A stretch of DNA of 64,000 nt from Sporocytophaga myxococcoides DSM 11118 (lineage in GTDB: Bacteria; Bacteroidota; Bacteroidia; Cytophagales; Cytophagaceae). Below, piece by piece: positions 2-59,783 of the stretch (the first letter of the stretch is position 1; every line of letters starts with the position of its first letter). The notes below the pieces were generated by a model. It ran no database searches, had not been told where the DNA came from, and saw only the letters and a list, made by a program, of their open reading frames with translations. The stretch spans positions 248,001 through 312,000 of the forward strand of contig NZ_KE384560.1 in the NCBI RefSeq assembly GCF_000426725.1, written 5' to 3'. The position numbers and the translations under genes were made by a program.

Positions 2-3000
2 TGGAGCAAGCTATATAGTAATGTAAATCCTCGTCGTATATCATTACCAACTTATCCATTTGCCAAAGTACGTTATTGGATAACAGAATCAAATATTCAA
101 GAGGCTTCTTATGAAGATAAAGTAACCAGGCTTCATCCGTTAGTACATGCCAATACTTCTAGCTTAGCCGAACAGTGCTTTAGTTCAGTATTCAGCGGGG
201 ATGAATTTTTCCTTAAAGACCATAAATTAAAAATTGATGGTCAGCCCGAACAGAAAGTCTTGCCGGGAGTGGCTTATCTTGAAATGGCGCGGGTTGCGAT
301 AGAGCAATCTATGCCAAGACAATCTGAATCAACTATTATAGAGTTACGAAATACAGTATGGATACAACCTGTTATAGTGACAGCGAATAGTCAGGTCAAA
401 ATAGCCTTGTATCCAAATGTTTCTGATAATGGCTTAAGTGAAGAGATAGAATATGAAATTTATACTCAGGATGATGAGCAAAGAATAGTTCATTGTCAAG
501 GTCAAGCTGTATTTGTGAATAGACCAGCGATAACTGAAATAAACATAGAACTTCTCAAAGGCAAGATTGGATATGATTCATTAGATGTCTCCAGGTTGTA
601 TGCGGCCTTTACCCAAATGGGTATTCTCTATGGGCCATCTCATCGGGGAATAATATCTGTTAACAAAGGAGACAATCAAGTACTTGCCCTGCTTCGTTTA
701 CCGAGTGTAGTAGAAGCAACTCAAAAAAGTTATCTGCTGCATCCAAGTTTAATGGATAGTGCATTACAAGTTTCTGTTTGCTTAGCAGAAGATCTTAATA
801 AATTGGGTAATAATCCCCCAATGCCATTCGCATTAGAATCTATACAGATCATGTCAGCATGTCCGGCAGAAGTATTAGTTTGGGTGCGATATGCGTCAGA
901 CAGCAAGCCTGAAGATTCTGTTCGTAAATACGATGTTGACCTTTGTGATCTGAATGGAAAAGTATGCGTCAGGATGAATGGATTTTCCACACGAATTGCA
1001 GAAAGCGGGCTTGGAGGTGTTAACAAGAAACCTTTGGTTCAGCAGCAAATGGTGATAAAAGATGGTTTACAGCATTTAATACCGGTTTGGAATCCATTGT
1101 TTATTGAGGCACTTACAAAGACTATTCTTCCTGAATCTTTAGAAATACTTCTGCTAGGAGGAAATGAAGGACAGCTGAGCTGGGTGAAGAAATCCTATCC
1201 AAAAGCTCGCCTTGTGCAATTGTCTACAGGGGCATCTATTGAAATGATTAAAGCAAAACTAAAGGGAATATCTTTTGACCATTTACTTTGGATTGCACCA
1301 GATGTTACTCCTGGAAATGATCAAATTAATGAGGCTGATGTAAATATAATAGATAAGCAAGAAGATGGTGTATTAGCAGTATTCAGAATTATAAAAGCCT
1401 TATTACAGCTAGGATATGCAGAAAAGGAGCTTTATTGGACAATCATTACTGGTAAAACGCAGAAAGTCAGAGATGATGATGCAATTAGACCTACTCATGC
1501 AGGGATATTTGGACTAGTGGGCAGTTTGGCGAAAGAGTATCTCCATTGGAATATACGGTTGCTTGATTTGAAATCACTTCAAGCTGTGTCTTCTGAAGAA
1601 TGTCTGTCACTACCTTGGGATAAAGAAGGAAATGGTTTTGCACACAGAAATGGGGAATGGTTTACACAGGAGTTAGCGCATTCGGGAACTGTTCCGCTAG
1701 TAAATTCTGCATACAAGCAAAGAGGTATATATGTTGTTATTGGAGGTGCAGGTGGAGTAGGAGAAGTATGGAGCAAGTTTATGATCGAACGATACCAGGC
1801 TAGAATTATCTGGATTGGAAGGCAAGAATATAATTCTTCAATAGAAGATAAAATCAGGTCATTAAGCTTGTTGGGCGATGCGCCTCTTTATGTATCTGCT
1901 GATGCCACAAAGTTTGAAGCATTAGAGGAGGCATTGGAAATGATCCTTAAAGTTCATCCAAAGATTGATGGAGTTGTCCATTCTGCAATTGTGCTGCAAG
2001 ATCAGAGCATCACCCAGATGGATGAGTCCAGATTCAGATCCAGTCTATCAGCCAAAGTTGACATAAGTGTAAACATGGAAAAGGTGTTTGGTCGTCAGGA
2101 TCTCGACTTTATGGTTTTCTTTTCTTCTCTGATGTCCTTTAATAAATCTGCTGGCCAATCCAATTATGCTGCAGGCTGCACATTCAAGGACAGTTATGCA
2201 CTTCACATGCAACATACTCATGCCTATCCGATAAAAATTGTGAACTGGGGATATTGGGGGATGACAGGTATAGTTACGGATGAGACCTATAGGAAGCGAA
2301 TGATTCAAAAGGGAATTGGATCAATTGAATCTGAGGAAGGTATGGAAGCCTTGCAAAATATGGTTGGTTCTGAAGTGAGTCAGATGGTATTACATAAAAC
2401 CCTCGACACACAGGCCCTTGAAGATCTCAAAGTTTCGGAATCAGTAATCTACTATACTACATCAACAACTCTTGACTTATCAGAAGCTAGAGTGATTATA
2501 GATAAACCATCCATAAATTCTAATGGCCTGAAGTCAGGGATGTTTACAGCAGAAATGGAAGCTTTGATATCAGAAATTTTGATATCTAGTTTGGTTTCGC
2601 TGGGACTATTCAAAGGTGGAATTTCTAAAATAAGTGAGTTACCTTCAGAAAAGCGGCCTGCTCCTTTTTATGATAAATGGCTGGTGTCCACCATAGATCA
2701 TTTACAACAATTAGGCTTATTAAATGCGAATTTGACTGTTAATAAAATCAAAAAGCTTGAGGAGGTTTGGGTGGAGTGGGAAAGCAAAAAATCTGGATGG
2801 ATTGCTAATCCAGATCTTAAGGCTCATATAGTCTTATTGGAAGCATGCCTAAAAGCACTACCAAATATCTTGAGTGGCAAACAACCTGCGACAGACGTTA
2901 TGTTCCCGAATTCTTCCATGGAATTGGTAGAAGGGATTTACAAGAAGAACATAGTTGCAGATTATTACAATCAGGTGCTGGCAGAAACACTGAGGGCATG

Positions 3001-6000
3001 CATTAAACAAAAGTACCAAGTAGACAAAGGGAGCAAATTCCGTATTCTTGAAATCGGGGCTGGTACAGGAGGTACAACAGCAAGATTATTACCAATGTTA
3101 AAAGAGTTTGGTGATTTTGTTGAAGAGTATTGTTACACGGATCTATCAAAGGCTTTTTTACTTCATGCGGAAGAACATTATCAACCTCAGTTTCCAGCCT
3201 TGACTACTGCATTATTTGATATTTCCAAACCTTTATCACAACAGTCGCAAACAATTCAAGCGGATCATTATGATTTGGTAATTGCTACCAATGTGTTGCA
3301 TGCAACAAATAATATCAGAAAGACTTTGCGAAATGCAAAGGCAGTATTAAAAAATCATGGTGTTATTTTGCTTAATGAAATAAGCACATGGTCGCTGTTT
3401 ACCCACCTTACCTTTGGATTGCTTGACGGATGGTGGTTGTATGAGGATGCAGCATTACGCTTGCCAGGTAGCCCTGCGTTGACATCAGAGAAATGGCTGG
3501 AAGTTTTGTATGGAGAAGGATTTAAATCAACATTCTTTCCAGCTGCGGATGTTCATGGATTTGGTCAGCAGATCATAGCTGCAACCAGCGATGGTGTGGT
3601 AAGACAACAGATCAATATTCAACAACCAAAACCTGTAATTATTCATAATAAACCTACCTTAGCTAACATAACAGAGGTAGTAAAAATAAAGAAAGATTCT
3701 GGCAGCCATTCTGAATCATTGAGAGATAAGTGTATTCCTTATTTTCAAAAGTTGGTTGCGGAGACTTTGAGAATGAGTCCTGGACAGATAAAACCATATC
3801 AGCCACTCTCGGAATATGGCCTCGATTCCATTTTGGTTGTTCAGCTTACTAATAAACTTCGGAAAATATTCCCTGATATTACGAGCACTTTGTTTTTTGA
3901 AGTGCAGACTGTCGATGGGTTAGTAGATTATTTTATAGAAAACAAAAAAGATATATTACTTGAAATAACTTCCAGTGCAATTAATACTGTTGAATCTCTG
4001 AAGGTATCAAAACCTGCTGGGGAGATTAATGTGCAAGAACACAAGGTTGTTGTAGAAGCAAAATCAACACAGGTATTGAGGAGAGGTCGTCAGCATTCTT
4101 TCCCGATGGCTCAGACTACAAAATTCACGCCATCGATTTTTGATGTTGCAATTGTAGGTGTAAGCGGAAGATATCCTCAATCAAAGAACCTGAATGAATT
4201 CTGGTTGAATTTATCGAAGGGATTAAACTGTATTTCTGAAATCCCTAAAGACCGTTGGAATTGGGAAGATTATTTTGATCCGGAGAAAGGAAAGCCTGGG
4301 AAAATTTATACTAAGTGGGGTGGCTTCATAAATGACATAGACAAATTTGACCCATTGTTTTTTAAAATTTCTCCCAAAGAGGCGAAACGTATGGATCCTC
4401 AGGAAAGATTATTCCTGGAAGCCGCTTACCATGCAATAGAAGATGCTGGTTATACTCCTGAGAATTTAGGTGATATTGAGAAAATCGGTGTATTTGCAGG
4501 TGTCATGAATGCAAGGTATACAGCTCAACCTTTTCATTATTCTATCGCCAACAGAGTATCATATATTTTAAATTTCCAAGGTCCTTCTTTAGCAGTAGAT
4601 ACCGCATGCTCAGCCTCCCTAACAGCTATTCACATGGCCTTGGAAAGCATGTATAGTGGTTTGACCACTTGTGCAATTGCAGGAGGTGTCAATCTGATTA
4701 TAGATCCAGTGCATTATACAGGTCTGTCAGAAATGACCATGTTATCGACAAGCAATCAATGCAAAGCATTTGGTGATCAGGCTGATGGGTTTGTCGACTC
4801 TGAAGGTGTTGGGGTTGTTATTCTAAAACCTTTACATCAGGCAGAAAAGGATGGAGATCATATATATGGAGTCATAAAAGGAAGTGCTATCAATGCAGGT
4901 GGAAGGACAAACGGATATACAGTTCCGAATCCTAAAGCTCAGGCTGCAGTGGTCTCCAAAGCTTTGGAACGCTCCAACATGGTTGCAGAAGAGATTAGTT
5001 ACATTGAAGCACATGGGACAGGCACAGCGCTGGGAGATCCTATCGAGATTTCCAGCTTAACCCGTAGTTTTAAAGAGACCACAAATAAAAATCAGTTTTG
5101 TTCTATAGGATCTGTAAAATCAAACATTGGTCATGGTGAATCAGCTGCAGGTATTGCCGGATTAACCAAGGTATTACTTCAGTTTAAGTATCAGGAACTA
5201 GTTCCTTCACTTCATTCCAATGTCCCTAATCCGGAGATTGATTTCAGTCAGACTCCGTTTAAAGTGCAGAAGAGTTTGGAGAAATGGCAGCGCCCATTAC
5301 AAAATAAAAACGGAATTATCAAGGAGATACCACGTACTGCTGGAATTTCATCATTCGGAGCAGGTGGAGCAAATGCTCACCTAATAGTTCAGGAGTATAT
5401 CTCATCAAAAGGAACAAGTCATTCTAATGTTTCCAATGAAAAGAATGATAAGGTCTTCATTCCTCTGTCTGCGAGGACATCAGAACAATTAAAGCAAAAG
5501 GCTTATGATTTAGCAGAGTATATTCGTGATTCTAAAAAGAACCTTCAATTAGACTCAGTGGCATATACTTTACAAATTGGAAGGGTTGATATGGATGAGA
5601 GGGTTGGATTTATGGTCTCCACTGCAGATGAATTGTTGATCAAACTTCAGGCATATCTAAATGGCGAACAGGATATTGAAAATATGTATCATGGACAAGT
5701 TAAAGGTAACAAAGATACTTTGTCCTTATTTAGCACTGATTCTGATCTAAGAGATGCAATTGATAAATGGATAGCAGGTGGAAAGTATTCAAAATTATTT
5801 GATCTATGGGTTAAAGGATTGAATCTGGATTGGAGTAAGTTTTACGGAGAAAGCAAGCCGGAGCGTATCAGTCTTCCTACCTATCCGTTTGCAAGAGAAC
5901 GTTACTGGATTGATACGGAAGATACACTGCAACAGGTTACCAAGGCTGTTGCATCTGCCGTTATTCATCCTTTGTTACAGGTGAATACTTCAGATTTATT

Positions 6001-6949
6001 GCAGCAAAGCTACCGCTCAACTTTTAATGGTAAAGAATTTTTCTTTGAGGATTGTAAAGCAAACACTGCTGAATGTGCAGCTCAAAAAAATCTTTTGCCC
6101 TCAGTATATTTGGAAATGGCGAGGGTGGCAATAGAAAAAGCAATGCCTCATGGATTGGAATCAAGGACTATGGAACTGCATAATATAGCTTGGGGAGAAC
6201 CATTTGTTGCTGCAGATAACAAAGAAGTTACTATAACATTGTTTGCAAAAGAGATGCATCAGGTTGACTTTGAAATTTACAGTCATGATAATAAAGAAGA
6301 AATCATCCACTGTCAGGGCCAAGCTATTATCCTTGCAAAGCAGACAGCACATATCCTTGGTGTAAAGCAAAGAACTAACGGATCTTCGACAATGATTCAG
6401 TTGCCTAACAGATTGGAAAATAATCTTAGCGAATATGTTTTGCATCCAATCCTGATGAATAGTGCCTTAAAAGAAGCAAATGATTTCATAAGAAGTTCTT
6501 CTAAAAATATTAATCAGACATCATGCCTTTTTGCTTTAGATTCACTTTACATACTAGGCAATTGTGATAAAGAAATGTTTGTTTGCGTCGGATATTCTCA
6601 AGACAATGCTACTGATGATACAATGATCAAACTTGATATTGACCTTTGTGATCAACAAGGTGATATATGTGTAGCTATGCGAGGCCTCACATACCAAAGA
6701 GACTTACTTAATGGATTAGAAAATGTTCAGAAGCAGATAATGTCATCATTGAATCTTCCAACTCCTAAATCAATTCAGCTAGCGTCAAAGGAAATCTCTT
6801 TCAATATTCAACAAGAAAAATTGAACAAGCAGGTACAATTAAATGAACTAGCCAGTAATTTATTAGTTGCTTTGAACGAATTAGCACCAAAGGAAATTGA
6901 GCCTGCTTCCGCAAGCAAAGCGTCAGTTACTCTTTCAGATATTTTTTAG
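2..6949 (+). CDS. trans-AT PKS, 5'-truncated: (KS)-DH-KR-cMT-ACP-KS-DH*
   Basis: The reading frame is open from base 2, so the gene begins left of the window; the first residues are the usual post-KS linker (motif YPFAKVRYW). Domains: DH from about 131 (His near 222, an insertion of a few residues before the LPG motif, and HPSLMD near 740); KR with GGAGGVG near 1741 and a YAAG active-site Tyr near 2165; C-methyltransferase with SAM motif EIGAGTGG near 3050; ACP with Ser codon at 3827 (GLDSI); KS from about 4135 with Cys codon at 4607 (TACSAS), HGTGT and NIGH; then a DH-like domain from about 5965. That last DH has lost its catalytic residues: the His position reads DCK, and HPxxxD reads HPILMN. 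No AT domain is present, so malonyl loading is in trans. The protein stops inside a module whose ECH and ACP parts lie on the next gene. Colinear reading: alpha-methylation plus an alkene (M1), then the KS of a beta-branching module (M2). Confidence 0.93.
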   Translation, partial: WSKLYSNVNPRRISLPTYPFAKVRYWITESNIQEASYEDKVTRLHPLVHANTSSLAEQCFSSVFSGDEFFLKDHKLKIDGQPEQKVLPGVAYLEMARVAIEQSMPRQSESTIIELRNTVWIQPVIVTANSQVKIALYPNVSDNGLSEEIEYEIYTQDDEQRIVHCQGQAVFVNRPAITEINIELLKGKIGYDSLDVSRLYAAFTQMGILYGPSHRGIISVNKGDNQVLALLRLPSVVEATQKSYLLHPSLMDSALQVSVCLAEDLNKLGNNPPMPFALESIQIMSACPAEVLVWVRYASDSKPEDSVRKYDVDLCDLNGKVCVRMNGFSTRIAESGLGGVNKKPLVQQQMVIKDGLQHLIPVWNPLFIEALTKTILPESLEILLLGGNEGQLSWVKKSYPKARLVQLSTGASIEMIKAKLKGISFDHLLWIAPDVTPGNDQINEADVNIIDKQEDGVLAVFRIIKALLQLGYAEKELYWTIITGKTQKVRDDDAIRPTHAGIFGLVGSLAKEYLHWNIRLLDLKSLQAVSSEECLSLPWDKEGNGFAHRNGEWFTQELAHSGTVPLVNSAYKQRGIYVVIGGAGGVGEVWSKFMIERYQARIIWIGRQEYNSSIEDKIRSLSLLGDAPLYVSADATKFEALEEALEMILKVHPKIDGVVHSAIVLQDQSITQMDESRFRSSLSAKVDISVNMEKVFGRQDLDFMVFFSSLMSFNKSAGQSNYAAGCTFKDSYALHMQHTHAYPIKIVNWGYWGMTGIVTDETYRKRMIQKGIGSIESEEGMEALQNMVGSEVSQMVLHKTLDTQALEDLKVSESVIYYTTSTTLDLSEARVIIDKPSINSNGLKSGMFTAEMEALISEILISSLVSLGLFKGGISKISELPSEKRPAPFYDKWLVSTIDHLQQLGLLNANLTVNKIKKLEEVWVEWESKKSGWIANPDLKAHIVLLEACLKALPNILSGKQPATDVMFPNSSMELVEGIYKKNIVADYYNQVLAETLRACIKQKYQVDKGSKFRILEIGAGTGGTTARLLPMLKEFGDFVEEYCYTDLSKAFLLHAEEHYQPQFPALTTALFDISKPLSQQSQTIQADHYDLVIATNVLHATNNIRKTLRNAKAVLKNHGVILLNEISTWSLFTHLTFGLLDGWWLYEDAALRLPGSPALTSEKWLEVLYGEGFKSTFFPAADVHGFGQQIIAATSDGVVRQQINIQQPKPVIIHNKPTLANITEVVKIKKDSGSHSESLRDKCIPYFQKLVAETLRMSPGQIKPYQPLSEYGLDSILVVQLTNKLRKIFPDITSTLFFEVQTVDGLVDYFIENKKDILLEITSSAINTVESLKVSKPAGEINVQEHKVVVEAKSTQVLRRGRQHSFPMAQTTKFTPSIFDVAIVGVSGRYPQSKNLNEFWLNLSKGLNCISEIPKDRWNWEDYFDPEKGKPGKIYTKWGGFINDIDKFDPLFFKISPKEAKRMDPQERLFLEAAYHAIEDAGYTPENLGDIEKIGVFAGVMNARYTAQPFHYSIANRVSYILNFQGPSLAVDTACSASLTAIHMALESMYSGLTTCAIAGGVNLIIDPVHYTGLSEMTMLSTSNQCKAFGDQADGFVDSEGVGVVILKPLHQAEKDGDHIYGVIKGSAINAGGRTNGYTVPNPKAQAAVVSKALERSNMVAEEISYIEAHGTGTALGDPIEISSLTRSFKETTNKNQFCSIGSVKSNIGHGESAAGIAGLTKVLLQFKYQELVPSLHSNVPNPEIDFSQTPFKVQKSLEKWQRPLQNKNGIIKEIPRTAGISSFGAGGANAHLIVQEYISSKGTSHSNVSNEKNDKVFIPLSARTSEQLKQKAYDLAEYIRDSKKNLQLDSVAYTLQIGRVDMDERVGFMVSTADELLIKLQAYLNGEQDIENMYHGQVKGNKDTLSLFSTDSDLRDAIDKWIAGGKYSKLFDLWVKGLNLDWSKFYGESKPERISLPTYPFARERYWIDTEDTLQQVTKAVASAVIHPLLQVNTSDLLQQSYRSTFNGKEFFFEDCKANTAECAAQKNLLPSVYLEMARVAIEKAMPHGLESRTMELHNIAWGEPFVAADNKEVTITLFAKEMHQVDFEIYSHDNKEEIIHCQGQAIILAKQTAHILGVKQRTNGSSTMIQLPNRLENNLSEYVLHPILMNSALKEANDFIRSSSKNINQTSCLFALDSLYILGNCDKEMFVCVGYSQDNATDDTMIKLDIDLCDQQGDICVAMRGLTYQRDLLNGLENVQKQIMSSLNLPTPKSIQLASKEISFNIQQEKLNKQVQLNELASNLLVALNELAPKEIEPASASKASVTLSDIF

Positions 6950-7010: not shown

Positions 7011-10000
7011 ATGACTTTTGAACCATCAAACCAAGATAGCAATGTAAATACACCACCTTTAGTCGACTTATCTGATTTAGGAGATGGCGTATATTCAATT
7101 AGAATAAAAGCCCCTAATAACAATACACTTTCGCGGGATTTAATAGAGCAGTTGAAAGAGCTGATTGGTTCAGTGCAAAATAAACCATCGGTTAAAGCAC
7201 TAATCCTTAATGGTACGCCTGCTGGCTTTTTGACAGGTGATAGAAGAGCATATAATCTTGCCATTGAGCACAAATTATTTCAATCGATTGTGTCAATTCC
7301 ATTTCCAGTTATAGCAGCAATGCAAGGGGATGCGACAGGTACAGGTTTTCTGTTTGGAGCGTTGTGTGACTTTATGATCTGCAGTACAAATGGAAACTAC
7401 TATTATACAAGTTGGCAAGACGGAATATTTCCAACATTAACAGAATATCAACTATTTGAGGAACGTTTCGGAAAGCTCTTAGCGGCAGATTTTTTATATG
7501 CCTCGGAATTTTCAAAAGGGAACCAACTCAAAGGAAAAGGATGGGCATGTCCAATTCTCCCGTCTGATCAGGTTGAGGCTTATGCTCAGCAATTGGCTGC
7601 AAATCTCGCTACAAAATCTGAAGAGTCTCTTCGTCTGTTGAAGCAACATTTGTCAAGATTCATTGTCAAGAAGACTGAGGGATTGACTCTTGTTGATCCA
7701 TTAGTCAATAATAGTAAACAAAAGATGGCTCAGGAGAAGATTACCTCTCCTGCTAAATATATAGAATTGGAGTACCATGGAAATGTTTTGGTCATAACAA
7801 TGTGCGCTGAAGGAAAAGAATATGGCGTTAAAGCATTAGTTGCAGATTTAAGGAATATATTTAATCAGGTTAATAAGACTTCGCATTATAAATCTATTGT
7901 TCTTACTAGTGGGCATACTGATTTTATACCAGGAACAGGATCGGAGGTTGCAGTTAATGAAGTTCTGGACTTACAAAATCTTATTTTGGAAAGCTCAATT
8001 CCAATCATTGCAATCTTGAATTCAAATGCAAATGGTGTTGCATGGTTTGTAAGTTTGTTTTGTGATGCCTGCATTTATAACACAAATGCTAATTACTCTG
8101 CCAAAGGAATCTTTCAGAACGCAGAGCTTTCCAAGCAAGCAGGAATTATCTTTTCAAAGCATTTTGGTAATTATTCTGGAAAAGAAATATTAATAACTGC
8201 TAAAGATTATTCTGGCTTAGAACTACAGAAGATTGCTGGAGTTACCAGGGCTTCCAATAATGACGATACCTTAAATGCGGCTTTGCAACTTGGAGAATAT
8301 TGGAGTAAGTATCCATTGGAAACCTTGACGAGGTGGAAAAAGGAGAATGCAATTGATATTCGGGAGAAGATTAAAAAGCTACCTGCATGGTCTGAACCTA
8401 AAGAGGTGGACAGTGAATTGCTTCCAGCTTCACCTTCTATAATATCTCTTAAGTCAAAGGTTATAACTGCAACAGCTCATCCTGAAGGTATACTTGTTGT
8501 GAAAATGGAAGATCGTGAAGCGAAGAATATGTTTTCCGGAGCTTTCATAGAAGGGATGAACGAAGTGTTTGAACATTTAGAAAAATCCACAACCTATAAA
8601 GCCGTCGTTCTCATTGGCTATGATAATTATTTTGCTTCGGGGGGAACAAAGGAAAATTTACTTGATATTCATGAAGGAAAATCAAAATTTACCGATAATA
8701 GAATTTTTCAAATTGCATTGACATGCAGGATACCTGTAATTGCAGCTATGCAAGGCCATGGTATTGGAGGGGGGTGGAATCTTGGAATGTTTGCTGATTT
8801 GGTTCTCTTTAGTGAGGAAAGCAAATATTTTAGTCCGTATATGAATTACGGATTTACTCCGGGAGCAGGTGCTACTTTTATTTATCCTGAGAAAATCGGA
8901 TATGATCTGACAAGAGAAACTTTGCTCACTGCTCAAGAATATTCTGGCAAAGAGTTAAAGGAAAGAGGCCTTGTAATGCCTGTAGTAATGAGAGAGCAGG
9001 TATATCAGGCGAGTATGGACATAGCAAGAAATATCGCAACTAGATCCAGAAGCAGCTTAATAGCATTGAAGCAACAGTTAAACAATCATCTTTTTGCTCC
9101 ACTTGAGGAAACTTATAAACTTGAACTCTCGATGCATCAGAAAACCTTTGTTGGACATGTTGATACATTAAAGCAGATTGAAGAGAATTTTATTCAAGAA
9201 CAGGCTTCTCAGAATTCTCCGATTAGTGTTGCTGAAAAGACTATACCGCAAGAAATAACTATCTTATCTTTAAATGCAAACACTGCTAATCTTCATGAGG
9301 TTAGGGCTAGCATTAAAAATATCCTTGCTAATGAATTGCACATGCAAGAGCATGATATTGACGATAATACTCAGTTTGTTGACCTTGGGTTGGATTCTAT
9401 CACAGGAGTTACTTTCATTCGTAAAATCAATGAAAAATATAAAACAAGGATAGATGCAATTAAAGTTTATAGCTATCCGACTTTATCAAAATTAAGTCGC
9501 TTTGTAAAAGATGAGATAGCTAAAGTGGGTGCATTACCCGATAATCCTGAAGTTCATTCAACTGCTACTAAGGCCACTCAGACTAAACCACAAGTCTTCC
9601 TAGCAACTGATGGGCCCTCAACTTCAGCTAAGTTGACCGAAATTACCTCAACTGTTAAAAGACTGCTGGCGGAAGAATTGCATATGCAAGAGCATGGAAT
9701 TGACGAAAATATGCAATTCGTTGATCTGGGTCTTGACTCTATTACAGGAGTGACTTTAGTACGCAAGATCAATGATAGATTTAAAACGAAGATAGATGCG
9801 ATTAAAGTCTATAGCTATCCAACGCTGACTAAGCTATGTCGCTTTGTAAAGGAGGAGGTTGAAAAGAAAGGGGCATTGCCTGGAAAGACGGAGCAAACAG
9901 TGTCAGGTCCTAATGCTCAGAACTCCCGCAATCAACAGAAGGTTAAGTTAGTTAATGATGACATATCTCCAAGACAGGATAATTTACCTGAAGTTACAGC

Positions 10001-13000
10001 AAGTATAAAAAGGCTTTTGTCTGGAGAGTTGCACATGCAAGAGCATGAAATAGATGAGAATGTTCAGTTTGTTGATCTTGGTCTGGACTCTATTACAGGA
10101 GTTACCTTCATTCGCAAGATCAATGAAAAGTATAAAACGAAGATAGATGCAATTAAGGTTTATAGCTATCCAACCATCTCGAAACTTGGTCGATTTGTAA
10201 AAGAGGAAGCTGAACGCATAGGTACACTGTCTAATGAGCCTATCATTAGCAAAACGACTACACCAGTTAATATTTCCCCAATTGAGAAGAATATAGAGGC
10301 TCCAAAAGTTGCAACAAGAAAGCTTGTTTCCTGGAGAAGCAATAAGCCTGCATTAAGAATTAAAGCTGAAGGAACACGTCAGTCAAATCAATTGCAGCCA
10401 ATAGCGGTGATTGGGATGGCGGGTCAATTTCCTATGGCAAACAATCTCGATGAGTTTTGGCAGAATATTTCTCAGGGTAGAAACTGTATCAGTGAAATTT
10501 CTCCAAAACGCTGGGATATTGATAACTATTATCAAAAGGGTGAAGCTAAGCCCGGGAAAACAAACAGTAAATGGACTGGAGCCCTGGAAGAGTATGATCT
10601 GTTTGATCCATTGTTTTTTAATATATCTCCAACAGAAGCGGAGAGTATGGATCCTCAGCAGCGTGTTTTTTTACAAACTTGCTGGCATACGATAGAAAAT
10701 GCTGGATATAATCCTCAGAAGCTTTCAGGCTCAAAATGCGGAGTATTTGTGGGCTGTGGCCAGGGAGACTATCGCTTGTTGTCAAAAGACCTGCCAATCA
10801 GCGCTATGGGTTTTACAGGTAGTGATACTTCTATTTTAGCTGGAAGAGTCTCTTACTTTTTAAACTTACAAGGTCCGAGTTTATCCCTCGAAACTGCTTG
10901 CTCTTCTTCATTGGTTGCCATTGCCAATGCCTGTGATAGCTTGACTTCAGGAAATAGCGATCTTGCTCTTGCAGGAGGTGTTTATATCATGACAGGACCT
11001 GAGGTGCATATAAAATGCGCTCAAATGGGAATGTTATCGCAGGATGGAAAGTGTCATACATTTGATCAAAGTGCAAATGGATTTGTTCCAGGGGAAGGCG
11101 TAGGAGTGGTAATGTTAAAAAGACTTGCAGATGCTGAAAGGGATCAGGATATGATCCTGGGTGTCATTCAAGGTTGGGGTGTTAATCAGGATGGTAAAAC
11201 TAATGGTATCACAGCGCCTAACTCAGAATCACAAACCCGTCTTGAGCAAGAAGTATATGATAAATTTCAGATTGATCCTGAACAAATACAATTGATAGAG
11301 GCGCATGGTACAGGTACCAAATTAGGAGACCCTATTGAGGTGGATGCTTTAAAGCAGGCCTTTAATAAATACACCCAGAAAAAAGAATACTGTGCTTTAG
11401 GCTCAGTGAAAAGTAACATTGGTCATTGTTTAACCGCAGCAGGAGTAGCAAGCTTTATTAAAGTAATTCAGTCATTGAATCATAAGAAACTTCCTCCAAC
11501 AATTAATTATAATAATTTGAATGAGCATATTTCTTTAAGTGATAGCCCTTTTTATGTCAATGACAGGTTGCTCGATTGGAAGGTTGGAAATGCGGAGAAG
11601 CGTCAGGCTGCAATAAGTGCCTTCGGTTTTAGCGGAACAAATGCTCATATAGTGTTAGCGGAATATTTGTCTCCAGTAGGGAATTCATCTATTTCAGTTA
11701 GATCTCAGAATGGAAATGTTATTATCCCTTTGTCGGCGAGAAATGAAGAACAACTAAAGAAAAAGGCTATTGATCTCTTGGAATTTATTCAAAAAGAGCA
11801 GTCACTTGATCTGAACAGTTTAGCTTATACTTTGCAGGTTGGAAGAGAAGAGATGGATGAGCGTTTAGGTTATATTGTAGGTTCCTTATCTGAGCTAGCT
11901 CAAAAACTCAAAGCATATATTTATAATGAAAAAAATATAGCGGGTGCTTATTTAGGAAAAGTTACTGGAAATAAGTCTGGTTTAAAAGCCATCATTCAGG
12001 ATGAATCAACGAAGGAAGTCATTGTTGAAAAGTATATCGCTCAAAAGAACTTACCAGATTTACTGAACTTATGGACTAAAGGTTTGGAGTTTGATTGGAA
12101 TAAATTATATGGAAATAGAAAACCACAACGTATAGCAGCTCCAGTTTATCCATTTGCCAAGGAAAGATATTGGATTGATTCTTTAGAGCAGCCACCTTTA
12201 TCAACAAAAGAAGTATTGAGATTTGCTCTACACCCTTTGCTGCATAGCAATACTTCAAATTTTCGAGAACAAAGCTATACTTCAGTATTTACTGGTAACG
12301 AGTCGTTCTTAAGAGATCATCAAGTGAATGGGCAAAAGGTCCTTCCTGGGGTGGCATATCTTGAAATGGCCAGAGCGGCCATAGAAGATGCAATGCCTGT
12401 TAAATCAACATCAAGTATGTTGGAGTTGCAAAATACAGTTTGGTTACAACCAATATTGGTCGATCATGAGAAGGAAGTAACCATAGCTTTGTTTGCAAGT
12501 GAAATGAAAAGTGGTCAGCAAGAGAGAATCGACTTTGAAGTCTATACTAAAGACGGAGATCAGGAGATACTTCATTGTCAGGGTCAGGCAGTTTTTATCA
12601 AAAAAACGATTTCTGGCAAACTTGATATAGGCCATCTAAAAAAGCAAATGCAACGTGAGGTTTTAGAGTCTACAAGTATATATGAAGTATTTACGAGAAT
12701 GGGATTTACTTATGGACCGGCACATCAGGGTGTATCACATATTAACATAGGGGATAAACAATTACTTGCGTATTTAAATTTGCCAACAGTGGTTGAAGTG
12801 GATCAGAATGATTATCATTTGCATCCGAGCCTGATGGATAGTGCCTTGCAATCCTCAATTGGTCTAATGACTAATCTTAAAGAAGGACTTAATAAACCAA
12901 TATTGCCATTTGCTTTAGATTCTTTACAGATTATTTCATCATGTGCAAATGAGATGATTGCCTGGGTTCGCTATTCATCGGGCAGCAGCCCTGAAGATAA

Positions 13001-13250
13001 AATAATGAAACTTGATATAGATCTATGTGATCTGCAAGGGAATATTTGCGCCCAGTTAAAAGGATTCAAATCAAGGGTTTTAGAAAATGATAACAAATCC
13101 GACAAGAATTACAGAACAGAAAGTATAATCAACAATCAAGGGAGTTCAATTACAACTAGCAGTACTTTTGATGACTCCTATTATCAGAAGGTTATGGAAG
13201 GTATTTTAAATAATGAAGTTTCTATTGATGAAGCAGTCAATTTAGGATAG
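7011..13250 (+). CDS. trans-AT PKS: ECH-ECH-ECH-ACP-ACP-ACP-KS-DH
   Basis: 2079 aa. Three consecutive crotonase-fold domains come first (about aa 15-225, 245-460, 485-735). Only the third looks like a complete ECH2 decarboxylase (SGGTKE near aa 545, MQGHGIGGG near 580). The second has no glycine-rich oxyanion loop (NSNANGVAW). Three near-identical ACPs follow, with Ser at aa 796, 910 and 1027 (all LDSITGVT). Then a KS (Cys at aa 1297, TACSSS, HGTGT, NIGH) and an intact DH (His at aa 1770 in HQVNGQKVLP; HPSLMD). The C-terminus (NNEVSIDEAVN) looks like a four-helix docking element matching the N-terminus of the next protein. The N-terminal half completes the beta-branching module begun by the KS-DH* of the previous gene; the C-terminal KS-DH starts module M3. 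The gene begins 61 nt after the previous stop. KS, ACP and DH calls are secure; the roles of the first two ECH domains are not. Confidence 0.92.
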   Translation: MTFEPSNQDSNVNTPPLVDLSDLGDGVYSIRIKAPNNNTLSRDLIEQLKELIGSVQNKPSVKALILNGTPAGFLTGDRRAYNLAIEHKLFQSIVSIPFPVIAAMQGDATGTGFLFGALCDFMICSTNGNYYYTSWQDGIFPTLTEYQLFEERFGKLLAADFLYASEFSKGNQLKGKGWACPILPSDQVEAYAQQLAANLATKSEESLRLLKQHLSRFIVKKTEGLTLVDPLVNNSKQKMAQEKITSPAKYIELEYHGNVLVITMCAEGKEYGVKALVADLRNIFNQVNKTSHYKSIVLTSGHTDFIPGTGSEVAVNEVLDLQNLILESSIPIIAILNSNANGVAWFVSLFCDACIYNTNANYSAKGIFQNAELSKQAGIIFSKHFGNYSGKEILITAKDYSGLELQKIAGVTRASNNDDTLNAALQLGEYWSKYPLETLTRWKKENAIDIREKIKKLPAWSEPKEVDSELLPASPSIISLKSKVITATAHPEGILVVKMEDREAKNMFSGAFIEGMNEVFEHLEKSTTYKAVVLIGYDNYFASGGTKENLLDIHEGKSKFTDNRIFQIALTCRIPVIAAMQGHGIGGGWNLGMFADLVLFSEESKYFSPYMNYGFTPGAGATFIYPEKIGYDLTRETLLTAQEYSGKELKERGLVMPVVMREQVYQASMDIARNIATRSRSSLIALKQQLNNHLFAPLEETYKLELSMHQKTFVGHVDTLKQIEENFIQEQASQNSPISVAEKTIPQEITILSLNANTANLHEVRASIKNILANELHMQEHDIDDNTQFVDLGLDSITGVTFIRKINEKYKTRIDAIKVYSYPTLSKLSRFVKDEIAKVGALPDNPEVHSTATKATQTKPQVFLATDGPSTSAKLTEITSTVKRLLAEELHMQEHGIDENMQFVDLGLDSITGVTLVRKINDRFKTKIDAIKVYSYPTLTKLCRFVKEEVEKKGALPGKTEQTVSGPNAQNSRNQQKVKLVNDDISPRQDNLPEVTASIKRLLSGELHMQEHEIDENVQFVDLGLDSITGVTFIRKINEKYKTKIDAIKVYSYPTISKLGRFVKEEAERIGTLSNEPIISKTTTPVNISPIEKNIEAPKVATRKLVSWRSNKPALRIKAEGTRQSNQLQPIAVIGMAGQFPMANNLDEFWQNISQGRNCISEISPKRWDIDNYYQKGEAKPGKTNSKWTGALEEYDLFDPLFFNISPTEAESMDPQQRVFLQTCWHTIENAGYNPQKLSGSKCGVFVGCGQGDYRLLSKDLPISAMGFTGSDTSILAGRVSYFLNLQGPSLSLETACSSSLVAIANACDSLTSGNSDLALAGGVYIMTGPEVHIKCAQMGMLSQDGKCHTFDQSANGFVPGEGVGVVMLKRLADAERDQDMILGVIQGWGVNQDGKTNGITAPNSESQTRLEQEVYDKFQIDPEQIQLIEAHGTGTKLGDPIEVDALKQAFNKYTQKKEYCALGSVKSNIGHCLTAAGVASFIKVIQSLNHKKLPPTINYNNLNEHISLSDSPFYVNDRLLDWKVGNAEKRQAAISAFGFSGTNAHIVLAEYLSPVGNSSISVRSQNGNVIIPLSARNEEQLKKKAIDLLEFIQKEQSLDLNSLAYTLQVGREEMDERLGYIVGSLSELAQKLKAYIYNEKNIAGAYLGKVTGNKSGLKAIIQDESTKEVIVEKYIAQKNLPDLLNLWTKGLEFDWNKLYGNRKPQRIAAPVYPFAKERYWIDSLEQPPLSTKEVLRFALHPLLHSNTSNFREQSYTSVFTGNESFLRDHQVNGQKVLPGVAYLEMARAAIEDAMPVKSTSSMLELQNTVWLQPILVDHEKEVTIALFASEMKSGQQERIDFEVYTKDGDQEILHCQGQAVFIKKTISGKLDIGHLKKQMQREVLESTSIYEVFTRMGFTYGPAHQGVSHINIGDKQLLAYLNLPTVVEVDQNDYHLHPSLMDSALQSSIGLMTNLKEGLNKPILPFALDSLQIISSCANEMIAWVRYSSGSSPEDKIMKLDIDLCDLQGNICAQLKGFKSRVLENDNKSDKNYRTESIINNQGSSITTSSTFDDSYYQKVMEGILNNEVSIDEAVNLG
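7056..9195 (+). repeat. triple crotonase (ECH) block, copy 1
   Basis: Three crotonase-fold domains in tandem inside the second PKS protein. Their oxyanion-hole segments differ: GDATGTGF (first), NSNANGVAW (second, degenerate) and GHGIGGGW (third, matching the free ECH2 at 47051-47800). Copy 2 lies at 18025-20155 in the same order with the same degenerate middle domain, so the whole block was duplicated as a unit. Confidence 0.85.
9290..10215 (+). repeat. tandem ACP triplet
   Basis: Three ACP domains with almost the same sequence around the phosphopantetheine Ser (codons at 9396, 9738 and 10089). The residue six after Ser is Phe, Leu and Phe, where the ACP arrays at 20260-20850 and 34636-36035 have Trp. 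Tandem ACPs are typical of HMG-synthase-dependent beta-branching modules. Confidence 0.9.
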
Positions 13251-13257
13251 AGGTACA

Positions 13258-16200
13258 ATGAAACAAAGACTAAAAGAGATATATGAAGACTTGTCAAAGG
13301 GCAAGCTTACACAAAAAGATGCTTTAGAGAAAATTAAAGCATTAAAGCAGGATAGTAGGAATGTGGGTGTTCTGCTTTCTACTCAAGTGTGGGAACAATG
13401 TCAGGTTATAGCAACATCTGCTTCTGATAAATCAGAATATGTTGAAAAGCATATTATTTTGTGTGAGTTAGCAAATGTTGATGTTAAGCAATTAGGAACT
13501 CTTATTCCTGATAGCAGCTTTATTTCATGGAAAGCAGCAGCTGATAAAAATATAGCCGAGAGTTATTGTGATTTTGCATTGACTTGTTTTGAGAAACTTC
13601 AGTCAATAATAAAAAGCAAACCTCAGGGCAAGGCTCTTGTCCAGATATGTATTGCTAACTCAGCTGATCAAGAATTATTTATTGGAATATCCGGATTGCT
13701 CAAAACGGCAGCTCTAGAAAATCCACAATTGTTGGGTCAGGTTATTCTTAGTGGACCTCAGACAAGTACAGAAGAACTTGCTGAACAGCTAGTCGCTTCC
13801 CAAAGCAAACCTAATGATAAGATAATTAAATATCATCAAGGTGCTAGAAGTGTTTTGAGTTGGAAGGAAATAGAGGAATTTAATGAAACTGAATCATCTG
13901 CAATTTCTTTCAAAGATCAGGGTGTCTATTTGATCACCGGTGGTTTAGGGGGATTAGGTATTCTGTTTGCAAAAGAAATCATTAAGCAAACCAGCAATGC
14001 CAAGATCATTTTAGCGGGCCGCTCAAAATTGACTTCTGATAAGAAGAAGACTTTAGAATCTTTGAAGGCAAAGAGAAAGACTGTCGAATACCGTCAATTA
14101 GATATTGCAGATATTGATCAGGTCAAGCAATTGGTTGCTATAATCAAGAATGAGTTTAAGCAACTTAATGGCATTATTCATAGTGCGGGAGTGATTGTAG
14201 ATAACTTCATTCTAAAAAAGAACTCAAGAGAATTTAAGGAAGTACTTACGCCTAAAGTGCTAGGTACATACAACCTTGATCAGGCTACTAAGGAAGTTGA
14301 TTTGGATTTCCTGGTTTTGTTTTCTTCAATGGCATCTGCAATAGGCAACATAGGTCAGGCAGATTATGCAACTGGTAATGGATTTATGGACCAGTTTGCG
14401 TCCTATCGGAATCAATTAACAGAATCAAAGCAGAGAATAGGGAAAACACTTTCTGTGAACTGGCCATTATGGCAAGAAGGTGGAATGGTGTTGGATCAAG
14501 CCACTCAGGATATGCTAAAGCAGACTATGGGGTTGCAGTCAATACCAAGTGAAACAGGCATGACTGCATTTTATAAATCCCTGAAATTACAATATGCTCA
14601 GACATTGATTCTAAAAGGTGATATATCAAAAATTCGGAATTCATTGTTTAATGATGTGGCAATCCATACAGAGACTTCAAAGAATATTATAGAAGAATCA
14701 TCAGTTGAACCAAGTATTAATAACGGAAATCTTTTAGAAAAGACTCAGGATTTAATTAAGAAACAACTTTCAGAGTTGTTGAAAGTACCATCTCATAAGA
14801 TTGATCCTACGGCTCCGCTGGAGAGATATGGTATTGATTCCATATTAGCAGTAAGCCTGACAAATCAGTTAGAAAAGACTTTTGGTGCCTTATCTAAAAC
14901 GCTCTTTTTTGAGTATCAAACTATTGGTGAGCTTGCTGAATATTTCATAAATGCTCATTCGCCAAAATTATATTCCATCTTTAATACAATTGAATCAAGT
15001 CCGAAAAAAGTAATTGCTCCTTTACCAACGCCTAAGTCACAAACTCAGACAAGAGCTATATCTGGCAGACGGTTTAGTTCTCAAGCACAAGTTTCTGCTT
15101 CAGCAAATTCAATAGGCTCGGTGAATATGGAGCCTATTGCAATTATAGGTTTAAGTGGTCGTTTCCCTGAATCAATAAATATAAATGAGTATTGGAACAA
15201 TCTTCGTAATGGAAAAGACTGCATCATTGAAGTCCCACAGGATCGTTGGGATTGGCGAGAATACTACAGTGAGGATCGTAACAAAAGCGGACATCACTAT
15301 AGTAAGTGGGGTGGTTTTATATCAGGTGTTGATGAATTTGATCCAAGGTTTTTCAACATATCACCAAAGGAGGCAGCTACTATTGATCCGCAGGAGCGTT
15401 TGTTTTTACAGCATTGCTGGATGGCAATTGAAGACGCAGGATATACTCGTGCAAGTCTACAGATTCCTTGTGATCAGGACTTGGCCGGACAGGTGGGAGT
15501 ATATGTGGGCGTGATGTATGGGGAATATCAGCTTTTTGGAGCTGAAGTCAGTGCGAAGGGGAAGCGAATGGGAATTCCGGGTAGCTATGCAAGTATTTCC
15601 AATAGAGTTTCCTATGTATTGAATTTGCATGGCCCTAGCATGACTGTCGATACCATGTGTTCTTCCTCTTTGACAGCTATTCATTTGGCCTGTCAGGATC
15701 TTAAGCTTGGAAGAACAAGTTTAGCAATTGCAGGTGGAGTAAACGTTACAGTTCATCCGAATAAATATTTGGTGCTCAGTGGAGGGCAGTTTATTTCCAG
15801 TGACGGTCATTGCCAAAGCTTTGGTGAAGGAGGAGACGGATATATTCCAGGTGAAGGAGTTGGAGCAGTTATATTAAAAAGATTATCTGAAGCTGAAAGA
15901 GACGGGGATCATATCTATGGTATCCTTAAAGGAAGTATTCTTAATCATGGTGGTAAAACAAACGGATATAGCGTTCCTAATCCTCAAGCTCAGGCAAGTG
16001 TTATAAGCAAGGCTCTAGCTGAATCAAACATCAATCCTCGTCATATAAGTTATATTGAGGCTCACGGAACCGGAACCAAATTAGGTGATCCTATTGAAAT
16101 TGCTGCCTTAAGCAAATCATTTCAACAATATACCAAAGACACAGGATTTTGTTTAATCGGTTCTGCTAAATCAAATATCGGCCATTGTGAATCAGCTGCT

Positions 16201-19200
16201 GGCATAGCGGGCCTTGCAAAGGTTTTATTGCAAATGCAAAACAGGGAAATCGTACCTTCTTTGCATTCTGCAAAATTAAACCCTCGTATAGATTTTGAAA
16301 AGACACCTTTCGTTGTCAATCAAACATTAAAACCATGGAATCAACCTGTCATTGATGGTGTTGAGATTCCGAGAATTGCAGGAATATCTTCTTTTGGCGC
16401 TGGAGGATCAAATGCGCATATTATTATTCAGGAATATGCTTCATCTACAGAAGCAAATTATTCTACAGGCTCTGACGAAATAGGAAATGTTCTCATTGCT
16501 TTATCAGCCAGAACAGAAGAGCAGCTAAAGCAAAAAGCCAGTGACCTTTTATCTTTTGTTCAAACAACGCGACCTGAACTAGCTGCTATGGCTTATACCC
16601 TACAAGTGGGCAGAGAAGCTATGGAAGAACGTCTTGGCTTTTTAGTAAGCTCAGTTGATCAACTGATTGATAAGCTTAAGTCTTATATTAACGGTGTTCA
16701 GAATATTGAGGATACTTATCAGGGACAAGTTAAACGGAATAAAGAAGCTTTGTCTTTATTCAGCACAGATACTGATCTTCAGCAAACTGTTGGTAAATGG
16801 ATATCCGAGAAAAAGCTTTCCAAACTTCTGGATTTATGGGTTAAGGGTCTTGAATTGGACTGGAACAAGCTATATGATGGCAATAAACCTAATCGCATTA
16901 GCTTACCTACCTATCCATTTGCAAAAGAGAAGTATTGGGTGGATGCTAAAGTTGATAGCCAATCTGTATCGTATATATCTAAAGCGGCTGTCCTTCATCC
17001 ATTGCTGCATATAAATACTTCAAACCTCATTGAGCAGAGTTATAGTACAACATTCAATGGTAAAGAATTTTTCCTTACTGAAAATGAGTTGAATGATGGT
17101 ACACTACAGAAGGTTCTTTCGCCAGCAGCATATTTTGAAATGGCAAGAGTTGCAGTAGAAAAATCTATACCTGCACTACAAGAGTCAAATGTCTTGGAAA
17201 TGAAGAATGTTGTTTGGGGAGAATCCTTTGTATATGAAGAGTACAAACAAATTTCCATAGCACTTTTTGCAAAAGAGAATAATCGTGTAGATTTTGAAAT
17301 CTATAGTTTGGATAAAGAGGAAGTAACTGTTCATTGCCAGGGGCAAGCAGTCTTTGTTCCAAACCAAGTAAGGCACAAACTTGATTTAGCTCAACTTAAA
17401 TATCAGGATGGACAGGGAGCTAATCAATTGCTGACTGAGATCAAATTGCCAGTCAATTTGGAGGGTATCAGCAAGGAATACGTGCTGCATCCAAGTCAGA
17501 TGCATAGTGCATTGCAATTGGCGGGTCGGGTAATAGGAAACGGTCAATCAGCACTTCCATTTTCATTGGAAGGTTTATCTATATTGTCTGCTTGTACGAA
17601 AGAGATGTTCGTCTGGGTTCATTACTCCCAAGCTAATCTGGCAGAAGATAAAAACACAAAACTGAATATTGATTTGTGTGATATGCAAGGAAACATATGC
17701 GTGCAGATGCGTGGGATTTCATATCAAGCAGAATCCAATAATGGAAAAGCTGAGGCTTCCAGTCAAACTGTTTCCTATTCCTCATCAAATGAGCCTAAAC
17801 AAGTTCCCATTAACTATAAGGTAACAGAACCGAGAAAAATTTTCATCGGTGAGGCATTGTCTCAAACCTATGAAGAAAAGGATCTTAAAAAACCATCAGG
17901 AATTTCGATTGTAGCTTTAGATGATTTTTCTTTGGAAAAGAGTGAATCAATTTCAATAGCTAAAGCTTCAGTTTCGCTTCTGAATACTGGTTTCGATTTC
18001 TTTGAAGATGCAAAATCTCCAACTTCAATTAGCTTATTTGACTTGGGAAATGGAATCTTTTCCATTCAAATCGCAGGAGCAAACAACAATACACTTTCAC
18101 CGGATTTAATAAAAGAATTAATCCAAGCACTTACTGCTGTACAAAAAGAACCTTTGGTTAAGGTTTTAATTCTGAAAGGAACGGAGCATAGTTTCTTAAG
18201 AGGCGGTAGAGCAGAATACAATTATGCCATTGAGCAAAAGTTGTTCCACGAGATAGCTTCCTTCCCATATCCTGTTATTGCAGTAATGCAGGGAGATGCG
18301 ATAGGCGCTGGTTTTTTGGTTGGTGCTTTGTGCGACTTTATGATTTGTGGCACAGACAGTAACTATTATTATACAAGTACACAAGATCATATTTATCCAA
18401 CAGTTGCTGAATATCGGCTTTTTGAAGAACGTTTCGGTAAGGCCAGAGCAAAGGACTTCTTGTACATTTCAAATGTTTCTACCGGAAATCAGCTTAAAGA
18501 TAAAAGTTGGACATGCGCAATCCTTCCATCAGGTCAAGTAGAAGCTAATGCACAAAAATTAGCAGAAAGTTTGGCAAAGAAATCAGAAGCCTCTCTGCGA
18601 CTGTTGAAGCAACACTTGTCGAGTTCTGTTCTTAAGAAGGCAGAGGTTTTAGCAATGGTTGATCCTTTAGCTGATGAGAACCAATCTGATAATTTTAATT
18701 CAAATATTACTACACCGGCTAAATATATTGAGCTGGAAAGCCATAATGGCAATGTTTTGATCATTAAAATGTGTGTTGCTGGAAATGAATATGGCTTAAA
18801 GGCGTTGGTTGCAGATTTGAGAGTTATTTTTAATCAGGTAAATAATTCTCATTACAAATCCATCGTTCTGGTGAGCGAGCATGCTGATTTTCTTCCAGGT
18901 ACAGCACAAGAAGCGGCAGTTAATGATGTATTGGATTTTGAGAATCTTGTTTTGGAAAGCCAGATTCCGGTCATTGCTGTTTTAGATTCAAAGACAAACG
19001 GTGTCGCATGGTTGGTGAGTTTATTTTGTGATACATGTATATACAATTCAAATACGGTTTATTCAGCTAGCAATATATGGCAAAACAATGATCTTGCCAG
19101 ACAAGCAGGAGTCCTATTCTCAGAACAATTCGAAAGTTATTCCGCGAAACAAATACTGCTAACCGGAAAAGAATACTCAGGAGTAGAATTAAAGCAGCTT

Positions 19201-35289: not shown

Positions 35290-36035
35290 TAAACTTCAGC
35301 AGGCAGATTTTGCAGTGAACTACCAAGCATATGATTGCTGGTGAAACCAAAACAGAGTATTCCATCTTATATCGTATTCCACAACCATGTTAAATTCCAT
35401 AAAAGAAAAAGAACTTTTTTATACTAAAGAGCAAATTCAGCAAGCGTTGGTTACCAGCTTGGCTGAGGCGCTTTATTTGAGTCCATCAGAAATAGATATT
35501 GATAAATCTTTTATAGATCTTGGTCTTGATTCCATAGTAGGAGTAGAATGGATAAAGTTTATTAATAAGACCTTTGGCCTTGAAATATCTTCCACAAAGA
35601 TTTACGATTATGCTACTATCAAGGAACTATCCTTGTATGTATCGAAAGAACTAGAAAATGTAATAGTTGCTCCTGTTAGTACATTATCTTCTTTACCGGC
35701 CAATAGTATTTCAGATTTGAAGACATTAGCCGCTTCAGCAAATTTATATTCAAACCCCTCAAGTGACTCAATCGGACAAGGCCTTGTATATACTAATGAC
35801 CATATCCAGGAAGTCTTGGTTAAAAGTTTGGCTGATGCACTGTATTTAAAACCATCAGAAGTGGATGTTAATAAGTCATTTATTGATATGGGTCTTGATT
35901 CCATAGTAGGAGTTGAATGGATTAAGTTTATTAATAAAACCTTGGGGTTGGAAGTATCTTCTACAAAGATTTATGACTATTCAACCATAAAGGAGCTTAC
36001 GTTGTTTTTAGCAAAAGAGTTGGGAAATGTTTCGG
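34636..36035 (+). repeat. four-ACP array split across two genes
   Basis: Ser codons at 34747, 35131, 35531 and 35900; all four read LDSIVGVEW. The gene boundary (35290-35386) falls in the middle of the array. The domains are so alike that they probably arose by recent tandem duplication. Confidence 0.88.
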
Positions 36036-59749: not shown

Positions 59750-59783
59750 GAGTATAATAACTTAACTGAAAATTTTGATTAAA

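Follow-up and report, generated by a model that had tools for sequence, protein, structure and literature searches.

A triple crotonase block, possibly a single-chain pseudo-trimer, in a trans-AT polyketide synthase of Sporocytophaga myxococcoides

A trimeric tailoring enzyme that works within a dimeric megasynthase poses an architectural puzzle. The puzzle is raised by a locus of Sporocytophaga myxococcoides DSM 11118, where a sequence-only reading found three crotonase (ECH) domains fused in one polypeptide and suggested that they fold as an intramolecular trimer with one catalytic and two structural subunits. The 64,000-nucleotide stretch of DNA that we analyzed (the window; positions 248001 to 312000 of contig C19, in a 6.3-Mb genome) carries a large trans-AT polyketide cluster (Table 1). 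The Pfam listings of the cluster's PKS ORFs contain no acyltransferase family; two acyltransferases are encoded as free genes. The cluster's β-branching cassette appears complete: HMGS, ECH1, ECH2, a free KS that is probably decarboxylating, and a likely free ACP; the ACP and the missing Cys of the KS were recognized by eye.

Four further ACPs with the β-branching Trp (DSIVGVEW) lie at 34651-36028, two ending one PKS ORF (28753-35289) and two opening the next (35387-42634); they probably form a split four-ACP β-branching module on which the free ECH2 acts. A chorismatase gene (FkbO/Hyg5-like; Pfam, 62 bits) lies shortly before the start of the window (contig C19, 243187-244143) and may supply a chorismate-derived acid as polyketide starter. 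The loading region of the first upstream PKS ORF (contig C19, from 226023) is unusual: ACP, LPG_synthase_C-like, and β-eliminating lyase-like domains precede the first KS. A 324-aa ORF (43729-44703) between the PKS and HMGS genes had no match in a Pfam/NCBIfam search at 0.001.

Table 1. Features of the window; positions are counted from its first nucleotide
Feature	Position	Strand	Evidence
Preceding PKS ORF, ends KS + DH-like region	2-6949	+	ORF list; Pfam; HxxxGxxxxP missing by eye
PKS ORF A, 2079 aa, D1-D2-D3-ACP-ACP-ACP-KS-DH	7011-13250	+	ORF list; Pfam; domain HMMs
Block A D1, pseudo-ECH2	7053-7745	+	Alignment; PRK07110 137 bits
Block A D2, pseudo-ECH2	7746-8444	+	Alignment; PRK07110 65 bits; ECH_1 40.2 bits
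Block A D3, ECH2-type decarboxylase (predicted)	8445-9188	+	PRK07110 288.7 bits
Three tandem ACPs of block A, flag residue F, L, F (not Trp)	9300-10217	+	Pfam; domain HMMs
KS downstream of block A, in group of KS following D3	10395-11669	+	Domain HMMs
PKS ORF B, 5153 aa, holds second triple block	13258-28719	+	ORF list; Pfam; domain HMMs
Block B (second triple block)	18016-20154	+	Pfam; alignment
Block B D1	18016-18711	+	PRK07110 130 bits
Block B D2	18712-19413	+	PRK07110 64 bits; ECH_1 23.4 bits
Block B D3, ECH2 with catalytic His	19414-20154	+	PRK07110 296.1 bits
Two tandem ACPs of block B, β-branching Trp flag (DSITGVTW)	20275-20844	+	Domain HMMs
PKS ORF	28753-35289		ORF list
PKS ORF	35387-42634		ORF list
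HMG synthase of β-branching cassette	45010-46269	+	Family scan
Free-standing ECH1 (dehydratase)	46257-47048	+	PRK07112 410 bits
Free-standing ECH2 (decarboxylase, PksI-like)	47051-47800	+	PRK07110 386.6 bits
Free acyltransferase (trans-AT)	55684-56649	+	Family scan
Small ACP-like ORF, likely donor ACP	58142-58399	+	By eye
Free-standing KS, likely decarboxylating; active-site motif GGASATG without Cys	58472-59749	+	Motif by eye
Free acyltransferase (trans-AT)	59775-60950	+	Family scan

The three crotonase domains are real: Pfam PF00378 (ECH_1) matches three stretches at the start of ORF A (309.6 bits), and the alignment borders of D1-D3 put the 712-aa block A within a few nucleotides of the extent first read from the letters (7056-9195). 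That reading missed a second triple block, block B, in the next ORF. PRK07110, the PksI family of NCBIfam, is the best family for all six domains, yet its 215-bit cut-off is passed by D3 only and failed by every D1 and D2, which bears out the earlier call of the last domain of block A as a full ECH2. The best solved chain for that D3 is PksI 4q1g (E, 6.5e-68). Blocks A and B are 61% (D1), 59% (D2), and 77% (D3) identical, while D1, D2, and D3 of one block are 26 to 29% identical to each other over 125 to 203 aligned residues; in profile comparison, the D2 family is akin to D1 and D3 with probabilities of 99.8 and 99.9 (ACP control, 0.1). The D2 of block B scores below the Pfam ECH_1 cut-off (23.4 versus 27), so routine annotation would read block B as a didomain. 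Since D2 was also below this cut-off in 3 of 10 relatives tested, annotation undercounts such blocks, and published pairs may hide a third domain. An assembly artefact is ruled out because a second genome of the genus has an equal two-block arrangement.

Active-site residues, aligned to PksI, separate the three domains cleanly (counts omit domains of 150 aa or less, and the D3 counts also omit the lone ECH of locus L039). In PksI, His230 is catalytic, and K80A and K232A mutants are still active (PMC7501309; papers are cited here for the accessible parts of their text). The His230 position holds His in 30 of 30 D3 rows, 0 of 28 D1 rows, and 0 of 27 D2 rows, and no D1 or D2 row has a His even within three columns of it; in blocks A and B it is N and D in D1, and E and D in D2. 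In block A D3, the catalytic His is encoded by codon 9135-9137 (residue 709 of ORF A). Every D1 (28/28) and D2 (27/27) has gaps at positions 80 and 81. Oxyanion position 66 is Gly in all 30 D3, 11 of 28 D1, and 1 of 27 D2, and glycines occupy both 107 and 109 in all 30 D3, 27 of 28 D1, and 5 of 27 D2; position 108 of D3 is Ala (n = 24) or Gly (n = 6), with a backbone NH available either way. Thus, D1 of block A retains the glycine loop (GDATGTGF) and is missing the Lys80 loop and the catalytic His, while D2 is missing all three, with NGVAW replacing GIGGGF of PksI, as the sequence-only reading noted in describing a middle domain without a usable oxyanion loop. The His and glycine pattern makes one site in three look alive. 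By family score, residues, and fold, D3 is an ECH2-type decarboxylase whose activity is predicted; D1, with its glycine loop and CDFMIC motif, could still bind substrate.

The end of the ORF preceding ORF A appears to be the upstream half of the β-branching module. Block B is preceded by a KS and a DH-like region without HxxxGxxxxP and followed by two ACPs and then a KS. Fourteen blocks have an upstream gap of sufficient length to look for HxxxGxxxxP, and 13 of them lack it, the exception being locus L020 of a Verrucomicrobia MAG. The block lies directly before ACPs at 28 of 30 places with readable following ACPs and KS; the two of the 32 listed D3 matches without ACPs are a contig end and a lone ECH. 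Across the block family, the flag residue of the ACPs (n = 53) is W in 28, F in 17, L in 4, and unscored in 4; an F/L flag may mark a distinct class of acceptor ACP. Thirty KS that follow D3 score 575 to 1,032 bits to the KS of block A, compared with 234 to 611 bits for 41 other KS, two of which score above the weakest of the 30. Because the profile was made from the KS of block A itself, the scores of block A and its ortholog are inflated. By these scores, the downstream KS appears to travel with the block.

The blocks are widespread, but thinly so. A scan of named genomes found 23 loci, 22 of which (from 17 genomes in four phyla) hold D1 plus D2 and/or D3 in a PKS frame; the other, L039, is a lone ECH. 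Block carriers among the Bacteroidota are Sporocytophaga, Fulvivirga (2), Aquimarina (2), Kordia (2), Chitinophaga, and other Bacteroidota (2); the rest are Aliikangiella, Algicola, Paraburkholderia, Steroidobacter, Lysobacter, one Verrucomicrobia MAG, and one Planctomycetota MAG. Of the named genomes scanned, Sporocytophaga sp. BIN9 is the closest to the window's genome, with 91% identity in the best D1-D2 segment. Because two short peptide patterns were the sole query, the scan must undercount blocks. A whole-block model had 36 matches in the 16 scan genomes other than Sporocytophaga, at least one in each, as befits genomes picked because the scan had already matched them; 1 of the 36 has an in-frame stop, and one more is cut by a contig end. 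Among relatives of the window's genome, which is itself counted each time, carriers number 2 of 19 genomes in the family, 2 of 390 in the order, and 1 of 395 in the phylum, so the distribution of the block is patchy and its frequency low within each group; a PRK07110 search of the 395 genomes of the phylum found no modular case besides the window's genome. Blocks in 17 named genomes rule out a local duplication peculiar to this genome.

In an 89-row tree (domains of more than 150 aa), D1 (n = 28), D2 (n = 27), and D3 (n = 30) each fall on one side of a branch, with SH-aLRT values of 99, 100, and 96. When plasmid pseudo-domains and other ECH2 were included, and L039, the free ECH1, and the D1 of L038_15871 omitted, support was 66 for D1, 98 for D2, and 93 for D3; both trees are quick ones, without bootstrap. 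Since D1, D2, and D3 each form one clade, triplication probably happened once, and its simplest reading is one triplication after which blocks probably moved and multiplied as units. Comparison with another genome of the genus gave dN/dS values for D1, D2, and D3 of 0.255, 0.260, and 0.196 in block A and 0.197, 0.188, and 0.128 in block B; for the same genome pair, the values were 0.016 for free ECH2, 0.038 for free ECH1, and 0.050 for the KS of block A. As judged from these ratios, D1 and D2 are under purifying selection, looser than that on the free enzymes.

Not every relative has three domains. Planctomycetota MAG OFTM357, from a phylum not known, to our knowledge, for trans-AT polyketides, carries D1 followed after about 50 to 80 residues by D3 (L032, L033 [twice], and L035), as well as blocks with a short D2 (L026 and L027); its totals are three whole-model block matches and five split D1/D3 pairs, and by gene content it appears to be a heavy user of β-branching. 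AlphaFold2 gave one of its two-domain blocks a pLDDT of 84.9 and a pTM of 0.85; since D1-D3 blocks fold confidently, D2 appears dispensable there. D1 and D3 from double and triple blocks of OFTM357 nest together, so loss of D2 fits better in this genome. The two-domain form may leave one trimer slot open, which, we speculate, a free ECH2 could occupy. Among 15 of 23 matching plasmid records examined, a single pseudo-ECH precedes ECH2 in those of Nostoc UHCC 0926 and Ensifer canadensis (94 and 37 bits to D1), weakly placed beside D1 with support of 61 and long branches; those of Eleftheria, Photobacterium, and Kitasatospora have a modular ECH2 in a PKS with no pseudo-copy detected; in those of Azospirillum and Pseudoalteromonas SANK 73390, ECH2 is joined to just one KS; and the others hold free ECH2 genes or fragments. 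Cis ECH2 modules with one, two, and three crotonase domains thus all exist.

The sequence-only reading had suggested structure prediction for a block of about 710 aa. AlphaFold2, run on the 712 residues of block A with a 20-block alignment, returned a mean pLDDT of 90.6 and a pTM of 0.91. The alignment comprised blocks A and B and 18 blocks nearly whole within the fetched loci; it omitted those truncated where a locus or contig ends (L017 second, L018, L023, L030, L031 and L034 first, L019, L028 second, L038 second) and L029, which has a short D1. D3 alone, fitted near-perfectly to PksI, accounts for a TM of only 0.34 of the block query, so a pTM of 0.91 requires confident mutual placement of the domains. 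The modeled D3 matches PksI 4q1h_A (Z, 36.4; rmsd, 1.3 Å over 251 residues) and CurF (Z, 34.1). Of 50 structure alignments to the triple model, one reaches across the block, from the first residues of D1 to the last of D3, on a single crotonase chain (3sll_A, 2..712; 231 aligned residues, 2.6 Å); for the two-domain model, 5 of 50 span D1 to D3 (e.g., 3sll_A, 3..540; 230 aligned residues, 2.4 Å), two of them at about 6 Å. Because these alignments exceed the roughly 209 residues aligned for D1 alone (2a7k_I), we read them, as indirect evidence, as the C-terminal helix of D3 lying on D1 in the model, as in trimer neighbors. The fold library consists of single chains, which puts trimer geometry outside its reach. 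D1, D2, and D3 are predicted to pack rigidly in one chain, as a pseudo-trimer requires, and for the modeled block we infer a canonical trimer geometry.

We consider it probable that the block is the in-cis ECH2 decarboxylase of a trans-AT PKS and a single-chain pseudo-trimer, in which D3 does the work and dead D1 and D2 fill the other subunit positions. This reading builds on the domain order, residue losses, common descent, purifying selection, and cassette genes found here and on the predicted packing; the reaction, branch type, and symmetry argument are what we infer. The module (KS, degenerate DH, no KR) would leave a β-ketone on the tandem ACPs, to which the trans cassette (donor ACP, decarboxylating KS, and HMGS) would add an acetyl unit; trans ECH1 would then dehydrate. 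D3, tethered beside the ACPs, would decarboxylate the 3-methylglutaconyl-like intermediate via its His, and the next KS would accept the branched chain. The cis position would let D3 outcompete the free ECH2; if D3 wins, the two block modules probably get another branch than the free-ECH2 module. Finally, with three copies fused, each chain of the dimeric synthase could accommodate a trimeric enzyme.

The branch at the block A and B modules is most likely an exo-β-methylene. Modular ECH2 yields this group in kalimantacin, weishanmycin, and largimycin (PMC12560621, PMC7618002, PMC9396626), and an ECH domain with tandem ACPs and a cassette has been linked to exomethylene (PMC8262917). On the other side, lasonolide module 10, with its ECH pair, is predicted to give an endo-methyl (PMC9600693), and according to the palmerolide paper, the presence of an in-line ECH need not go together with an internal or terminal olefin (PMC8739492). 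A counterpoint to our reading as a whole is that the ACPs of block A lack the Trp flag. As for the original pseudo-trimer proposal, its division into one catalytic and two non-catalytic domains stands, strengthened by a probable single origin, purifying selection, and predicted rigid packing, but D1-D3 blocks and the single and paired cis ECH2 of plasmids and of published clusters speak against a strict "three or nothing" rule.

Other roles for D1 and D2 have to be weighed against this one. D1 might offer another active site, perhaps that of a double-bond isomerase or cis dehydratase, leaving only D2 structural; the near-universal GxG loop of D1 (both glycines in 27 of 28 rows) and its C-D-F-M and R-F-G stretches, invariant in the 20-row alignment, are what one would expect of such a site, and acid/base positions differ among known crotonases. 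By eye, however, no conserved acid/base replaces the His, the Glu of FPTxxEExLF is missing in several rows, the cluster already has a free ECH1, and the best family of D1 is that of ECH2 rather than ECH1, all of which makes a second site unlikely. We find it harder still to credit that D1 and D2 have no role, being relics of a tandem duplication that are now decaying, while D3 alone works, trimerizing with other chains or with the free ECH2. Both are kept in frame across four phyla, apparently from one origin, their dN/dS values are 0.19 to 0.26 compared with 0.13 to 0.20 for D3 (on which plain decay is rejected), and the prediction packs them rigidly and with confidence, even though they are without the known ECH2 catalytic residues, the branches of D2 are the longest, and some OFTM357 blocks lack D2.

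The least likely of these alternatives sees in D1-D2 not a trimer partner but a docking platform to which HMGS, ECH1, or ACPs are drawn: the position of the block immediately before its ACPs (28 of 30 readable places) is as such a platform would have it, but D1 and D2 are predicted to fold and pack with D3, and single cis ECH2 modules manage without either.

The new points that carry most weight are the second block, its probable single origin and broad distribution, the clear-cut pattern of residues, and the high pTM. If true, a single-chain pseudo-trimer would be a natural answer to the trimer-in-dimer question, would give a function to the "inactive ECH" domains of known pathways, and would give engineers a compact unit with which to add a decarboxylase to a module. 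A broader interpretation, which to us is evenly balanced between right and wrong, is that a three-fold enzyme has become a single uninterrupted chain with one working site, giving each half of the two-fold synthase a complete "trimer"; the dead ECH copies of published exo-methylene modules would then be integral subunits instead of relics, and cis-ECH2 modules with one, two, or three domains would mark stages in resolving the same symmetry mismatch.

Among characterized relatives, PksI is trimeric in crystal and solution, and CurF (PMC7501309) and BonI (PMC12560621) are also trimeric. D3 shares its fold, catalytic His, and oxyanion glycines with PksI (4Q1G-K) and the CurF ECH2 (2Q2X); whereas PksI and CurF are homotrimers of identical active subunits (PMC7501309), the window block is one chain with one predicted active site. 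The modular ECH (mECH) of kalimantacin, weishanmycin, and largimycin resembles D3 as a decarboxylating in-module ECH2 that competes with or replaces a trans ECH2; unlike the window blocks, it is treated as one domain in the accessible text (PMC12560621, PMC7618002, PMC9396626). Aurantinin ECHQ-TE is an ECH2 relative that matters in vivo despite lacking the catalytic His, but there His is replaced by Gln and the ECH is fused to a TE (PMC11425284), whereas D1 and D2 are missing both His and the Lys80 loop and lie in tandem inside a PKS. We rejected an ECHQ-type function for D1 and D2, whose His position (N and D; E and D) is not Gln, in an ORF A for which Pfam lists no TE family. The cis-AT "tandem ECH" KS class of NaPDoS2 has the name and the β-branching context in common with our blocks; it denotes an ECH followed by an ER in cis-AT PKSs, and the accessible text describes no triple (PMC9582728). 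The accessible parts of the Fulvivirga and Aquimarina (cuniculene) literature, including PMC9323603, and of PMC7930024 give no domain detail.

The closest published arrangements are pairs, which, like the kalimantacin cluster, we compared by published description; a hidden D2 is possible in the clusters of lasonolide, onnamide, and kalimantacin. The tandem-ACP module of onnamide OnnB is reported with two ECH domains (PMC6855096), against three in the window blocks. Lasonolide LasH and LasO carry ECHa-ECHb, of which ECHa is truncated, without an oxyanion hole, and proposed to be inactive; according to the same paper, citing Walker et al. 2021, a truncated ECH directly upstream of ECH2 is common with exo-β-methylene (PMC9600693). 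The window blocks thus share with lasonolide a dead ECH copy directly before a cis ECH2, and an HMGS cassette; they differ in that two crotonase domains are reported there, with no structural role given for ECHa in the accessible text (PMC9600693). Exactly one pseudo-ECH precedes ECH2 in the Nostoc and Ensifer plasmids and in part of OFTM357, but both window blocks have two. A literature search made mostly outside subscription papers found no triple ECH arrangement, in line with the sequence-only reading, which knew of none; a "truncated ECH + ECH2" pair was already in print (PMC9600693), which takes one step off the novelty assumed in that reading. The triple block is one step beyond the known pseudo-ECH/ECH2 arrangement rather than a wholly new type.
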